Positions 10,084 to 16,165 of a DNA stretch of 53,736 bases are shown here, in pieces. The stretch spans positions 1 to 53,736 of the forward strand of contig DATKKJ010000021.1 of assembly GCA_035543055.1 (NCBI GenBank), in the 5' to 3' direction. The stretch comes from Terriglobales bacterium (lineage in GTDB: Bacteria; Acidobacteriota; Terriglobia; Terriglobales; Acidobacteriaceae). A program made the translations under genes and the position numbers. Every line of letters begins with the position of its first letter. Position 1 is the stretch's first letter. The notes under the pieces are model-generated. The model saw nothing but the letters and a program-made list of their open reading frames with translations. It did not search any database and was not told the origin of the DNA.

Positions 10084-13065
10084 GTGTCCGTATCCCGCAA
10101 AAACGTCGAGCTCAACGACGCACAGCGACGAGCTGTGGAGCACGTGCACGGCCCCATGCTGGTGGTGGCCGGTGCGGGTACCGGCAAGACGACCGTGCTC
10201 ACCGAGCGCATCGCGCGCCTTATCGCGCAGCGGCACGCCCGTGCCGATGAGATCCTGGCGGTCACATACGGGGACGAGGCGGCTCGGGAGATGCGCGAGC
10301 GCGTAGCCGCCAAACTCGGCATCGATTCCGCCGACCTCCAGGCCCACACCTTCCATGGCTACTGCTTCGGGTTGCTGAAGCGTGCGCGCAAGGAATTCGA
10401 AGTCCTCGACGAGCAGGACCTCTGGATCTACCTGCGGCGTCGCGTTTCGGAACTCGGCCTGAAGCATTTCATCAAGGCGGCGAATGTCGGAGAGTTCCTC
10501 GGCGACCTGCTGCAGTTCTTCAGCCGCTGCCACGACGAGCTGAAGACGACGGAAGATTTTCGCCGCTACATCGAATCGGCGATCGCAGAGAACCGCCCGC
10601 TGCCGCGGGTGGTGCGTTCGAAGGTCCTGGAGCAGACGCCACGCGAGGAGATGATCGCCCGCTGCCGCGAGATCGCGAGCGTGTACGAAAAGGTGGAGCG
10701 CATGCTGGCGGCCGACAATTTCGGCACCTTCGACCACATGATCACCGGCGCGGTCCGATTGCTGCGCAGCGATCCGCAGCGCCTGCAAGAGGAGCGGGCG
10801 CGCGCCCGCTTCATCCTGATCGACGAATTCCAGGACGCCAACCTGGCGCAGATCGAGCTGGTACACCTGCTGGGAGGCGAAAGCGCCAACGTGTTCGCGG
10901 TGGGAGATCCCGATCAGGCCATCTACCGCTTCCGCGGCGCTACCGCCGGGGCGTTCGAGCAGTTCCTGGCGCGCTTTTCCGCAACCAAGGGCGTGACCCT
11001 GGAAGAGAACCAGCGCTCCACCTCCGGGATCCTCCGTGGCGCTTTCACCGTGATCTCGAAGAACCCGAAGATCACGCGCCCGGGTGGAGCCATCGCCGCC
11101 GAGTTCGAACGGCATCCGCTCCGCTCGGCCCGCGAGGAGCGCGCTCGCGACGACGGTGAGCCGATCCTTCCCGAGACCATTCACGTCGTGTACGCGCCGC
11201 CGCAGGCGCAGGAGCGCGGGCGGAACATCGAGACCTCGCAGGTGCAGGCGGCGGAAGTGGCTTCGTGCATCGCCGACCTCCACGATGCCAGCGGCGCGCC
11301 TTGGTCTGATTTCGCGGTGCTGTACCGCATCAACACCCACCGCGACGACCTGGCGGAGGAACTGGCCGCTCGCGACATCCCGTTCATCGTGCGCAGCTTG
11401 GACGTGTTGGATGTTCCGCAGGTGCGCGACCTGCTCGCCATCCTGCGCGCCGCGGTGAACCCGGGCGACAGCATCAGCGTGCTGCGCGTGTCGGCACTGT
11501 CGCAGTTCCGCATCGACCCTTACGAGCTGCGGCGCTGTCTTCTCGCTACCGGACGGGATGGCTCGATGACCGAGGTCTTGCGCAGCGTCCCCGGCGGTGT
11601 GGAAGTCCTGGCTGCGCTCGACCAGGCGCGCACCACCGCAGCAGCGAAGAAATGGAAGCTGCTGGACGCGCTCTCGCCGCTGATCCGCCAGTTCCGGTTG
11701 CGGAAGACATCGCAGGCCATGTCGGCGCTGATGCAATTCGCCCACAAGTGGACCGAGAAGCCGATCACCAAAGAGCCGACGATCGCCGGCTTCATCCAAT
11801 ACCTGGATTACTTCGTCGAGGCGCGCGGATCGGTACCGCTGCCGATGTCCGAGGGAGAGAATGCGGTGCAATTGATGACCGCGCACACCGCCAAGGGTCT
11901 GGAGTTCCGCAATGTGTTCATCATCCGCGCGAACTCCGGCTCGTTCCCACTCAATCACCGCGAGCCGCTGTTCGAATTTCCCGCAGGGCTCCGGGACGTG
12001 CGGGTGAGCGGCGACGCCGACCCTAAGCAGTTGCACAACGAGGAGGAGCGGCGCCTTTTCTACGTGGCCATGACGCGCGCCCAGGACAACCTGACCATCT
12101 GTGCCCGGCCGACCTCGAAGGGGGAGCCGCCCGGCGTCTTCGTCCGCGAGTTGATGTCGGACCGTTCGATCAAAGATGTGCTGGTCACCCGGCAGGCGCG
12201 CCCCTATCGGCTCACTCTGGCGGCCGGTGCGGCGGCGGTGGCGGCCTCGTCGGCAGCTTCGTGGATGCAGCTGGAACCGCGTCCCGAGCTGTTGCAGGAA
12301 GCGTTGAGCGCGTCGGCCATCGAGACTTACAACACCTGTCCGCTGAAGTTCAAGATCCAGCGCGACTGGCGACTGCCGGAGGAACCGGTCGCCACCATGC
12401 AGTTCGGCTCGGTGATGCACAGCGTCCTGCGCAACCATTACGAGGCGCAACGTACCGGACGCCCACAAAGCGACGACGAGGTCATTGCAGTGTTTTGTAC
12501 GCTGCTCGAGCAGGCGAAGATCGCGGACCGGGATCAGCGCGAGCTTTACGAGATGCAGGGTATCCGCGAACTGCGCGAGTTCCTGGCGTTGCGGCGCGCA
12601 GAGCCGGCGGTGGACGTCCTGGCGACGGAGAAGTCGTTCCAGATCGAGCTCGGCGGGGCAAAAGTCGTCGGCCGAATGGACCGCATCGACCGGCTTGCCG
12701 GCGGCCGCGTCGCCATCATCGACTACAAGAGTGGGCGACCGAAGGACCAGGAGGCCGCCGATGAAAGCCTTCAGCTATCGATCTACGCGATCGCGGCGGA
12801 GCGTGGCCTGAAACTTGCTCCGGAACGGCTGGTGCTCTACAACCTGGAGACCAATCAGGCGGTGGAGACGCGGCGCACAGAGGCCGAACTGCTGAAAGCG
12901 GAGCAAAGGGTCCGCGAAGTCGCCGGGCGTATCGCCGCTGGAGACTTTGCGCCGGATCCCAAGGTGCACGTCTGCAAGCGCTGCACCTACCGCGAGGTTT
13001 GTCCGGCCACCGAGGAGCGGCTGTTCGAGCTCCAGGAACTTGCCAAGCCCGCAGGAGTGAACTGA
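10084..13065 (+). CDS. UvrD/PcrA-like helicase fused to a RecB-family PD-(D/E)XK nuclease
   Basis: 993-aa two-module protein. The SF1A helicase has Walker A GAGTGKTT (about 30-37), DEFQD (about 248), GDPDQAIYRFRGA, EENQRST, MTAHTAKGLEFRNVF and ERRLFYVAMTRAQ. From about 740 there is a RecB/AddB-type nuclease: GRMDRID (about 862) and IIDYKSG (about 880) provide metal-binding residues. Cysteines in TCPLKFK (about 750) and CKRCTYREVC (about 963) match the Fe-S pattern of AddB/Cas4-type nucleases. It probably processes DNA ends during recombination. The start is GTG; the stop overlaps the rmuC start by 1 nt. Confidence 0.9.
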   Translation: MSVSRKNVELNDAQRRAVEHVHGPMLVVAGAGTGKTTVLTERIARLIAQRHARADEILAVTYGDEAAREMRERVAAKLGIDSADLQAHTFHGYCFGLLKRARKEFEVLDEQDLWIYLRRRVSELGLKHFIKAANVGEFLGDLLQFFSRCHDELKTTEDFRRYIESAIAENRPLPRVVRSKVLEQTPREEMIARCREIASVYEKVERMLAADNFGTFDHMITGAVRLLRSDPQRLQEERARARFILIDEFQDANLAQIELVHLLGGESANVFAVGDPDQAIYRFRGATAGAFEQFLARFSATKGVTLEENQRSTSGILRGAFTVISKNPKITRPGGAIAAEFERHPLRSAREERARDDGEPILPETIHVVYAPPQAQERGRNIETSQVQAAEVASCIADLHDASGAPWSDFAVLYRINTHRDDLAEELAARDIPFIVRSLDVLDVPQVRDLLAILRAAVNPGDSISVLRVSALSQFRIDPYELRRCLLATGRDGSMTEVLRSVPGGVEVLAALDQARTTAAAKKWKLLDALSPLIRQFRLRKTSQAMSALMQFAHKWTEKPITKEPTIAGFIQYLDYFVEARGSVPLPMSEGENAVQLMTAHTAKGLEFRNVFIIRANSGSFPLNHREPLFEFPAGLRDVRVSGDADPKQLHNEEERRLFYVAMTRAQDNLTICARPTSKGEPPGVFVRELMSDRSIKDVLVTRQARPYRLTLAAGAAAVAASSAASWMQLEPRPELLQEALSASAIETYNTCPLKFKIQRDWRLPEEPVATMQFGSVMHSVLRNHYEAQRTGRPQSDDEVIAVFCTLLEQAKIADRDQRELYEMQGIRELREFLALRRAEPAVDVLATEKSFQIELGGAKVVGRMDRIDRLAGGRVAIIDYKSGRPKDQEAADESLQLSIYAIAAERGLKLAPERLVLYNLETNQAVETRRTEAELLKAEQRVREVAGRIAAGDFAPDPKVHVCKRCTYREVCPATEERLFELQELAKPAGVN

Positions 13066-14189
13066 TGCTCGACATCGTGCTGGCCGTGGTCGCGATCGTC
13101 GTTGCCGGGGCCGCGCTCTACATGGCGTCGCGCCGGCCGCCCGCCGACGACCAGACGCTGCAGGCGGTCCGCAACGACCTCAGCCTGCTGCGCGAGACCA
13201 CCGACCGCTCCATCAAGCAGATCACCGACGTCTTCGCGCAGCAGTTGCAGGGGATCGGCTCCAACGTGCAGACCGCGCTGGCGGCCGTAAACTCAGATGT
13301 CTCGCGCTCGATGTCCGACACCACCAGGGCGGTGAACGACCGCATCGCCAATGTGCAGGCCACCTTCGGCGCGCTGCAGAAGCAGGTCGGCGAGATGACC
13401 GAGCAGGCCCGCAGCCTGGCCGAGATCTCGAAGTCGATCTCATCACTCGAACACATCCTGAGCGCGCCGAAACTACGCGGCGGCTTCGGCGAGGCCCAGC
13501 TCGAGAACCTGCTCGCCATGGTCTTCCCCCGCGAGCACTTCGAGGTGCAGTACCGCTTCGAGGGAGCCGGAGAGGTCGCCGACGCCGTGATCAGGTTCCC
13601 CCAGGGCATGGTCGCCATCGATTCCAAGTTCCCGCTGGAGAATTTCCGGCGCATGGCAGAAGCGAACAACGACGGCGATCGGAAGAGCGCACGCCGTGAG
13701 TTCCTGAAGGACACCAAGAAGCGGATCGACGAGATCGCGACCAAGTACATCCGCCCCGCCGACGGCACGCTGCCCTTCGCGCTCATGTACGTGCCGGCGG
13801 AGAACGTCTATTACGAAGCGATCATTCGCGACGAGGAAGGCAACGATCTTTACAACTACTGCACGCAGAAACGGGTGATGCCGGTGTCGCCCAATTCCTT
13901 GTACGCGTACCTGCAGACCATTGTCGTCGGGATGAAGAGCCTGTCGGTGAGCCAGCGCGCGGAAACCATCCTGCACGAGATCGAGTCGCTGCACCTCGAG
14001 CTCGTCAAGTTCACCCGGACGTACGGAGTCCTGGGCACGCATCTGAGGAATGCAGAAAAGAGCTACGACGACAGCCAGCGCGCGCTCGACAAGGTACAGG
14101 ACCGACTCGATCGCCTGGCCGGAGCCGGCGCCGAACAGCCGGAGCTGCCGCTGGAAGGGAAGCACGCGCTCGGCGCGGGCGGGAATTGA
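13065..14189 (+). CDS. rmuC: RmuC-family DNA recombination protein
   Basis: 374-aa RmuC. An N-terminal membrane anchor (MLDIVLAVVAIVVAGAALYMA) is followed by a long coiled coil (about 30-130). The PD-(D/E)XK-like RmuC domain contains LRGGFGEAQLENLLAMVFPREHFEVQYRF and VAIDSKFPLENFRRM. RmuC limits inversions and rearrangement at repeats in E. coli. Translation is coupled to the helicase-nuclease through the TGATG overlap, so the two probably act together in DNA repair. In a genome with so many short repeats such a function may matter. Confidence 0.93.
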   Translation: MLDIVLAVVAIVVAGAALYMASRRPPADDQTLQAVRNDLSLLRETTDRSIKQITDVFAQQLQGIGSNVQTALAAVNSDVSRSMSDTTRAVNDRIANVQATFGALQKQVGEMTEQARSLAEISKSISSLEHILSAPKLRGGFGEAQLENLLAMVFPREHFEVQYRFEGAGEVADAVIRFPQGMVAIDSKFPLENFRRMAEANNDGDRKSARREFLKDTKKRIDEIATKYIRPADGTLPFALMYVPAENVYYEAIIRDEEGNDLYNYCTQKRVMPVSPNSLYAYLQTIVVGMKSLSVSQRAETILHEIESLHLELVKFTRTYGVLGTHLRNAEKSYDDSQRALDKVQDRLDRLAGAGAEQPELPLEGKHALGAGGN

Positions 14190-14192
14190 GCG

Positions 14193-14223
14193 CAAAAACT
14201 CTGGGGACGCTCGTCGCGTCCCC
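14193..14223 (-). terminator. Rho-independent terminator of the micro-ORF transcript (possibly bidirectional)
   Basis: Minus-strand hairpin GGGGACGC-GACGA-GCGTCCCC followed by AGAGTTTTT. On the plus strand the same stem lies just after the rmuC stop with a weaker tail (AACTTTG), so it may end both transcripts. Confidence 0.75.
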
Positions 14224-14246
14224 AACTTTGCCTTTCGGCAACTAGC

Positions 14247-14288
14247 TTAGTGTTTCTTCTTCTTTGCTTTCTTTTTCTTCGTTGCCAT
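14247..14288 (-). CDS. 13-aa lysine-rich micropeptide
   Basis: Tiny ORF MATKKKKAKKKKH (9 of 13 residues are Lys). The ATG at 14288 is preceded by GGAAGGGAGAATAGGAACC, which offers two Shine-Dalgarno-like sequences. It has its own near-consensus promoter and an intrinsic terminator, giving a predicted transcript of about 150 nt. Poly-Lys peptides bind nucleic acid or ribosomes in general, but no function is known here. Alternatively the transcript is a small RNA and the ORF is incidental, or the peptide is an attenuator-type leader without a downstream gene. The isolated transcription unit is what supports it. Confidence 0.6.
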   Translation of the reverse strand: MATKKKKAKKKKH

Positions 14289-14351
14289 GGTTCCTATTCT
14301 CCCTTCCATTCTTCATGGATGTGCAACCTGACTACTGTTGCGACTGATGAA

Positions 14352-14380
14352 TGTATAGAGTCAATGAATTTTGATGTCAA
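14352..14380 (-). promoter_or_regulatory. Strong sigma70-type promoter for the micropeptide
   Basis: On the minus strand TTGACA (14380-14375), a 17-bp spacer and TATACA (14357-14352). The -35 is perfect and the -10 matches 5 of 6. It is AT-rich against a GC-rich background. Predicted +1 is near 14345, giving a leader of about 57 nt. Confidence 0.8.
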
Positions 14381-14479: not shown

Positions 14480-16165
14480 CTAGCGCGCAGACCCCATCTC
14501 CAGGATGGCTCGCTTCAATCGCTCGTGACTTTGCAGCCCGCGCAGATATGCGGTCTCCTCATCCGCGGCTTTCGAGCGGATGATATTCGCCAGCGATATC
14601 TTCTCGTCCTCGCTCCAGCGAGCGATGTCGGGGACCAGCGACAGCGCCGCCGTCCAATCGTCGAGCGCTTTCCGTTCGAGTTCGGTCCAGCCCGCGACGT
14701 TGACGCCGAGCGTGCGCGAAAGGTCTTTGCGCGTCTCGCGGCGCATCGCTTCCGGATCGCCGCCGAACCTCTTCGCCATGTGCCGCTGCACGGCGATCCC
14801 GAGCGACCGAGTGGAGAAGCGGTCCCACAAGCCGCGCACGGTCCCGCGCATCTCGTAGAACACGTGCCCGGCGGCGAGCTTTCGCAGCGTCCTCGCTGAT
14901 GTGCGGTGGCTGGGATCGGCTGCGATCTTGCGCTCCTCACGTTGCGCGAGCGCGAGCAAGGCAGGGCGTCCGGGCCGGAAGCCCAGTTTGCGATAGAACC
15001 AGAACGCGCCCGACTTGATCGCCTCCTCGTTGCCGGCGCCGAGCTGGTACGGATAGACCGAGAAGCAGGTGTATCCATACAACTGGCGGAACAGGTGGAG
15101 GATCTTGGAGTAGATCCAGGCGCTCTCGCCGTCGCGGTAGGCGTAAAAGGTGTTGAAGCCGATCTCCACCCATTCGAACAGCCCGATGTCCTCGATGTAG
15201 CCGATGGGAACGCCGTTCTTCACTGTCAGTCCGGCGTGGTAGGCGCGCAACGGCAGGCGCCGGCCAGGCGGCAGCCCCCAGAGGAAGATGCTGATGCCGC
15301 GGCCGGGCCGCGCCTCGACCACCTGGGTAGGATCGCCGCGCGTGGTGCCCCACAGCTCGCGGTAGCGGATGGTGACCGCGGTCTGCTCCATGTCCAGAAC
15401 CTTCTCGCCTTCGGCGCGGGAGAGCCGGCGGACGGGAATGTCCGGTGAAGCGAGCTCCTCCTCGATCGACACCTGGCGGCGTTGGATGAATCCGGCGCGA
15501 TGGAAGAAATGCCTCTTCACCGGCCAGCGAAAATTGGTCCGCGAGGCCGGCGCATCACCCAAATCCCAGTTCAGCGTGACGCCCAGCGCGTCGTAGATCT
15601 CGGTCTTGTGGGCGATGGGGAGCTGCAATCGCTCGAAGCGCTCCATCAGCCAGGGAAAATCGTTCCCTCGATTGGCGGAATGTAGCCATTCCAAATACGG
15701 GACATCGGCTTCGACCAGCGAATCGTCTTCGAGAAGGGGGAGAAAGCGCGGCAGGGTCGCCGCCATGCGCGACGACTGCTCCTCTGTGTCCCACTCGGCC
15801 GTGACTTGCTCGCCGTACTTCCTCCAGAGCCAGCGCGCGACTTCATAGGTGAATGTGTCGGAGAGAACGGTACCAGCGATGCCCGAGACATCCTCCGGGT
15901 CGAAGGTTGTCATGTCGGCGCCTGACTGGCGCAGCCGCTGGACGCGGTCACCGATCGTCGCCAGGAGTTCGTCACTCAACGACAGAACGCGCGCGCTCGG
16001 CGGGAACGCGCGCAGGAACAGGAGCACATCGTGGACCCTGATGAGGGTTGCGGGATCGTCGAGCCGTGCGCGGCGTAGGGAACGCAGCAGCGGCTCGAAC
16101 GCGACCCGCTCGCCGCGGACGTAGCGGCTGCGTGCCTGTTCCAGGCGGGCCAGCATCGTTGCCAT
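14480..16165 (-). CDS. 561-aa conserved hypothetical protein with acyltransferase-like C-terminal region
   Basis: Large soluble protein without an obvious named domain. The N-terminal half is helical. The second half contains RAYHAGLTVKNGVPIGYIED, a run of aromatic strands, QLGAGNEEAIKSGAFWFYRK and then KLGFRPGRP. The order of a glycine-rich acyl-CoA-loop-like QLGAGNEEA and a terminal FYRKLGF resembles GNAT acetyltransferases, which is my inference. It is the third gene of an ACP-ketosynthase operon on the minus strand, 27 nt after the ketosynthase stop. It could transfer or release an acyl chain from the carrier protein. Confidence 0.6.
   Translation of the reverse strand: MATMLARLEQARSRYVRGERVAFEPLLRSLRRARLDDPATLIRVHDVLLFLRAFPPSARVLSLSDELLATIGDRVQRLRQSGADMTTFDPEDVSGIAGTVLSDTFTYEVARWLWRKYGEQVTAEWDTEEQSSRMAATLPRFLPLLEDDSLVEADVPYLEWLHSANRGNDFPWLMERFERLQLPIAHKTEIYDALGVTLNWDLGDAPASRTNFRWPVKRHFFHRAGFIQRRQVSIEEELASPDIPVRRLSRAEGEKVLDMEQTAVTIRYRELWGTTRGDPTQVVEARPGRGISIFLWGLPPGRRLPLRAYHAGLTVKNGVPIGYIEDIGLFEWVEIGFNTFYAYRDGESAWIYSKILHLFRQLYGYTCFSVYPYQLGAGNEEAIKSGAFWFYRKLGFRPGRPALLALAQREERKIAADPSHRTSARTLRKLAAGHVFYEMRGTVRGLWDRFSTRSLGIAVQRHMAKRFGGDPEAMRRETRKDLSRTLGVNVAGWTELERKALDDWTAALSLVPDIARWSEDEKISLANIIRSKAADEETAYLRGLQSHERLKRAILEMGSAR

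Follow-up and report, generated by a model that had tools for sequence, protein, structure and literature searches.

The window, by which we mean the whole 53,736-nt stretch of DNA analyzed, carries a small transcription unit on the minus strand, located between rmuC (12999-14189, plus strand) and a 561-aa ORF (14480-16165, minus strand). In order, the unit comprises TTGACA-N17-TATACA, a two-hairpin leader, AAGGGAGAATAG, an ATG...TAA frame encoding MATKKKKAKKKKH, a GC-rich hairpin, and finally TTTTT. The promoter (14352-14380, preceded by a T-rich stretch) was read from the sequence, with TTGACA as the -35 element (14380-14375) and TATACA as the -10 element (14357-14352); the 17-nt spacer between them is found in 20 of 20 aligned relatives and in 151 of 157 units. 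We infer from the promoter that transcription starts at an A (14345), and from promoter and terminator together we predict a transcript of about 153 nt (14193-14345). The predicted leader contains hairpin 1 (14323-14341, arms GCAAC/GTTGC), supported by covariation, and hairpin 2 (14305-14319, arms TCCAT/ATGGA), supported by a compensatory C-G to G-C change in five relatives. The segment AAGGGAGAATAG (14294-14305) is both a Shine-Dalgarno sequence and a conserved RNA motif: AAGGGAGAA is invariant in 20 units, and GGGAGAATAG or GGGAGCGCAGG occupies this position in genera that lack the ORF. The ORF has 13 codons (14247-14288; ATG at 14288, TAA at 14249-14247) and is under coding selection in relatives, as described below. 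The intrinsic terminator (14194-14225), read from the sequence and supported by covariation in genus g35, consists of a hairpin GGGGACGC...GCGTCCCC (14225-14201) and a U-tract (14198-14194), and it may double as the terminator of the convergent rmuC.

The initial annotation had proposed that a near-consensus promoter, a good Shine-Dalgarno sequence, an ORF and an intrinsic terminator form a unit of about 150 nt, without stating the strand, and that such complete signals are rarely accidental. Both claims held. The pattern TTGACA-N15-19-TATA occurs once in the window, at the unit's promoter, and in none of 100 shuffles; a generic promoter scan overlooked this promoter because it requires the -10 element to end in T. 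The unit RNA folds 4.3 standard deviations better than shuffled sequences (z -4.3), beating all 200 shuffles, and the unit is single-copy in its own genome. We conclude that the unit is real and not a product of chance, mainly on the ground of its conservation in relatives, which keep the unit whole.

A DNA search located the unit in the majority of its family's members, and promoter, spacer length, leader hairpins, Shine-Dalgarno sequence, ORF, and terminator are all retained. The 20 units that we aligned have in common a T-rich stretch, TTGAC, the 17-nt spacer, TATA, AAGGGAGAA, and ATGGCA. Within the leader hairpins 96.8% of cells are paired and four pairs are changed on both sides; none of 500 shuffles equaled either score (paired cells or covariation), and the signal collapses once the partner is slid by one base. 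A covariance model spanning promoter to start codon (R1) matched 256 of the order's 298 genomes, with rarely more than one match in each; the single matches in other families of the class were weaker. Read individually, the weak matches in families f2, f3, f5, f6, f8, f10, f14, and f15 proved genuine, with the parts in the same order; peptides in these eight families include MPTKKAPAKKKPAAKKKK, MKSATKKPAKKKAAPKKKK, MAAKKKAKKKR, and MAKKPAKKAAKKKK, and the leader sequences differ. Outside the class, two genomes of family f83 carry MAAKKAAKKAPAKKAAKPAKKAAKKK or a close relative of it 3' of TTGACA-N17-TATAA. Matches elsewhere in the phylum, in families f62 and f64, had no such ORF and were probably due to chance. 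A separate scan of named genomes with the pattern AAGGGAGAATAG-N2-5-ATGGCANC returned at least 116 stretches; 79 of 80 among them belong to Acidobacteriota, mostly to Acidobacteriaceae and other Terriglobales, which places the window in class Terriglobia. Occallatibacter savannae AB23 carries MATKKAAKKAPAKKAAKKTAKKK. The sole non-acidobacterial match, in Helcobacillus, is probably a chance occurrence.

The ORF is under selection at the protein level across the class, as comparative sequence evidence shows. A script found the ORF in 163 of 192 distinct units, with ATG as the start in every case; the remaining 29 were four units at contig ends or with N, two in which the ORF was recognized by eye, and otherwise units of the ORF-less genera. 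The 163 ORFs encode 96 different peptides of 11-30 aa, composed of 55% Lys, 29% Ala, 7% Thr, 3% Pro, and 2.6% His; MATKK is the start in 134 cases and KKKH the end in 58. Mismatch rates at codon positions 1, 2, and 3 were 0.165, 0.139, and 0.401, and in 74 units that had not been chosen by pattern pN/pS was 0.25 in frame but 0.68 and 1.9 when the frame was shifted. Among purine-only codons, AAG occurs 1038 times and AAA 373 times, and all others together occur twice. Codon 2 is GCA in 65 of 66 ORF-bearing units, compared to 105 of 239 (44%) other Ala codons, indicating that the start region is constrained beyond the peptide and serves the RNA or initiation too. The codon 2 and Shine-Dalgarno statistics exclude pattern-selected loci because the pattern search had fixed those bases. 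In other orders the K/A-rich ORF is kept despite the differing leader sequences. The composition is nearly all K, A, T, P, H, S, and G, with no hydrophobic membrane-spanning peptide of the kind found in type I toxins. Models of histone H1-like proteins scored below threshold, and for one of the longest peptides only (PF07382 HC2, best 15.2 bits against a cut-off of 40; NF038052 and NF038053, best 15.3 against 80). We consider it likely that the peptide binds nucleic acid or another polyanion electrostatically, although binding is inferred from composition only.

The usual neighbors among relatives are a thiolase upstream and rsmE, dnaJ, or a UvrD-like helicase downstream; the suggestion that synteny with rmuC be used to trace the unit holds only locally. 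In the window the next gene downstream, rmuC, is convergent with the unit. A convergent UvrD-like helicase lies downstream in 72 units, rsmE itself is convergent in 18, and in many relatives rsmE lies downstream on the same strand. The convergent helicase is also found in other orders (f5, f10, f15), and this, together with the recurring neighbors, is as expected of vertical inheritance. On balance we favor the view, held jointly with the dual-function reading below, that this single-copy gene is ancient within Acidobacteriota, class Terriglobia, and has been passed on vertically. As side observations, rmuC in the window adjoins a gene (10084-13065, plus strand) whose 993-aa product joins a UvrD-type helicase to a PD-(D/E)XK nuclease domain; relatives of it are arranged convergently to the micro-gene in many genomes, including some of other orders. 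The 561-aa ORF on the other side has no Pfam match and a blast match in just one other fetched locus, and it adjoins a beta-ketoacyl synthase and an ACP-like ORF.

In three genera (g35, g37, and g39) the RNA is kept without the peptide. All 25 units found there lack both an ATG and a Lys frame, and their indels do not come in threes. These units retain TTGAC-N17-(T)ATA, hairpin 1, GGCAA motifs, and the terminator, and the conserved motif reads GGGAGAATAG with small variations in g37 and g39 and GGGAGCGCAGG in g35. Across 12 g35 genomes, pairwise identity was 0.57-0.94 in most 20-column blocks of the unit (0.23 in one indel-rich hairpin block), compared to 0.13-0.42 in flanking intergenic DNA and 0.63-0.73 at the start of rsmE; the DNA between terminator and rsmE is unconserved. 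RNAalifold assigned 34 pairs to the g35 units, 10 of them with double changes, including an extended terminator stem AACAC-CTC/GAG-GTGTT. In a tree of RsmE the ORF-less genomes form two groups, one of 20 rows and one of 3, and its well-supported branches cannot be reconciled with fewer than two changes. Two independent ORF losses with the RNA retained are therefore the probable history, a count that rests on this one gene. In all 23 ORF-less units with a recognized rsmE, that gene lies downstream on the same strand, so that retention of the RNA there could be a cis effect; such a role cannot hold for the window because rmuC is convergent. Selection on the RNA independently of the ORF is likely, with a cis role in the rsmE context not excluded.

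Thirteen genomes gave no match, which is not proof of absence. In seven genomes of the ORF-less genera (five in g39 and two in g37) the unit was not found even by a relaxed search, and complete loss or divergence is possible. An exact-pattern search for a relocated peptide gene in ORF-less genomes, which can miss copies, returned only longer proteins with Lys-rich starts or unrelated ORFs. Separately, we observed at five loci of ORF-less genomes proteins of 79-140 aa with MATKKAAKK-like N-terminal tails, which share a C-terminal stretch TRKYSP..GK.V..EM...K.GKLKSG..GKKVTNPKQAIAIGLSEARK and point to a possible wider use of the tail.

The initial annotation had offered a DNA/RNA-binding or ribosome-modulating micropeptide and an sRNA as alternatives; the relatives support peptide and RNA at once, with binding only inferred. 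Loss of the frame with hairpins kept, which it had named as the sign of an sRNA, is seen in two lineages. Its proposal that poly-Lys codons slow ribosomes found no support because lineages without those Lys codons still keep the RNA.

We therefore lean toward reading the unit as an ancient dual-function RNA, at once the mRNA of a polycationic micropeptide and an RNA that probably has a regulatory task of its own. The sequence comparison shows how the unit is built, that it is conserved, and that its ORF is under coding selection; it also shows covariation in the RNA, two losses of the ORF in which the RNA stayed, and an Hfq gene in the genome. Transcription, translation, polyanion binding, and base pairing are inferred. 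An own promoter and terminator on a short RNA, as a dual-function sRNA should have, are present as sequence signals, not as transcripts, and the two further expectations, an ORF selected as protein and an RNA selected apart from that ORF, both find support, the latter with a cis role next to rsmE not excluded. In the working that we propose, a strong sigma-70-type promoter would yield a stable RNA, about 150 nt long, that bears two hairpins near its 5' end and closes with a strong terminator. Ribosomes would load at the open AAGGGAGAAUAG motif and make a polycationic micropeptide, 11-30 aa long and composed of Lys and Ala with some Thr/Pro and often a final His. Such a peptide is in effect the tail of histone H1 on its own, and it would bind DNA, RNA, ribosomes, or polyphosphate. 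The RNA may also act alone, most likely as an sRNA through an exposed GGGAG/AGGCAA stretch, for which target pairing is inferred. The U-tailed terminator is a possible Hfq site, and an Hfq gene is present, with three Hfq-domain loci over the Pfam cut-off (one strong and two divergent). Given the conserved open stretch, the U-tailed terminator, and Hfq in the genome, a regulatory role for the RNA half is likely, with no target identified. A bolder reading, for which we think the present evidence falls a little short, is that of a class-wide riboregulator, perhaps reaching deeper into the phylum, coupled to a polylysine micropeptide that resembles a histone tail and stands alone, the two functions being able to part in the course of evolution.

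The unit lies outside every Rfam, Pfam, and NCBIfam family tested, and it works, by analogy, like the class of dual-function sRNAs. At the gathering score Rfam gave no match to the unit in the window or in 38 relative loci (one tRNA was found elsewhere in one locus), and at E-value level it gave nothing on the unit. RF02278, the Betaproteobacteria toxic small RNA, is a short terminator-ended family of unknown function (PMC4603805) from another phylum; its covariance model had no match at the unit and none over the cut-off in the genome. Predictions indicate that sRNAs commonly contain coding ORFs (PMC5521070). Like SgrS/SgrT, the unit is a small, terminator-ended RNA with its own promoter and a short ORF that can be lost while the RNA is kept; some enterobacterial relatives retain SgrS RNA without the ORF, which in one case was lost through mutation of the start codon (PMC4021124). 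SgrT, however, is a protein of about 40 aa that targets a sugar transporter, whereas the peptide here is of 11-30 aa, polycationic, from another phylum, and without a known target. VcdRP of Vibrio cholerae is also a dual-function RNA and encodes a small protein of 29 aa (PMC8672173), but VcdP binds citrate synthase, while the peptide described here is almost only Lys and Ala. The peptide resembles H1-like proteins (Hc2, AlgP, and the Burkholderia type) in Lys/Ala/Pro/Thr composition and in a length that changes with the number of repeats, as has been reported for Hc2 (PMC2848022), and longer acidobacterial proteins start with a similar tail. The H1-like proteins are far longer, whereas here the tail alone is the product of a structured RNA. 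Searching the literature on sRNAs of Acidobacteria, and with the peptide sequence, turned up nothing specific to the unit.

The rival explanation that survives best, and remains possible, is a plain small mRNA in which the micropeptide is the sole product of importance, leader hairpins and Shine-Dalgarno sequence aid stability or translation, and the remnant in g35, g37, and g39 is a decaying or co-opted relic. Coding selection is clear, the peptide is the most widely shared part, including in orders with differing leaders, and the g37 and g39 genomes without a detectable unit are as in ongoing loss. Against this, promoter, GGGAG motif, hairpins, and terminator are much better conserved than the flanks in the ORF-less units, with compensatory changes, in two separate losses; a relic would be expected to decay evenly, and this uneven conservation speaks against one. 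Less likely is control in cis, with the unit as leader or attenuator of the gene that follows it (rsmE where present) and the Lys-rich ORF as leader peptide. The same-strand rsmE in many relatives and in all ORF-less units with a recognized rsmE fits this view, as does the terminator at the unit's end, but the convergent helicase (in 72 units, and in other orders), the convergent rsmE in 18, and the unconserved DNA between terminator and rsmE do not; for the window it is rejected because the next gene, rmuC, is convergent. A noncoding sRNA only, with the ORF an accident of a purine-rich (ARN-like) Hfq-binding tract, is very improbable. AAG/AAA runs do resemble the ARN repeats of Hfq distal-face motifs, the RNA is kept without the ORF, and Hfq is present, but the near absence of purine-only codons besides AAA and AAG, the uniform ATG starts, and the frame-specific substitution bias lead us to reject a pure purine-tract sRNA. 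Finally, a chance arrangement of promoter-, Shine-Dalgarno-, and terminator-like sequences is ruled out for practical purposes by class-wide conservation as a unit, and nothing speaks in its favor after comparison with relatives.

Acidobacteria are abundant in soil, and we found no described RNA or micropeptide of such a kind there. A single-copy gene retained class-wide, whose tiny ORF has this degree of comparative support, would count as a core element, one that annotation overlooks on account of its shortness. The two lineages in which the ORF was lost naturally can be compared with the others to tell RNA function from peptide function, and the peptide raises the question of what a histone-like tail does alone.
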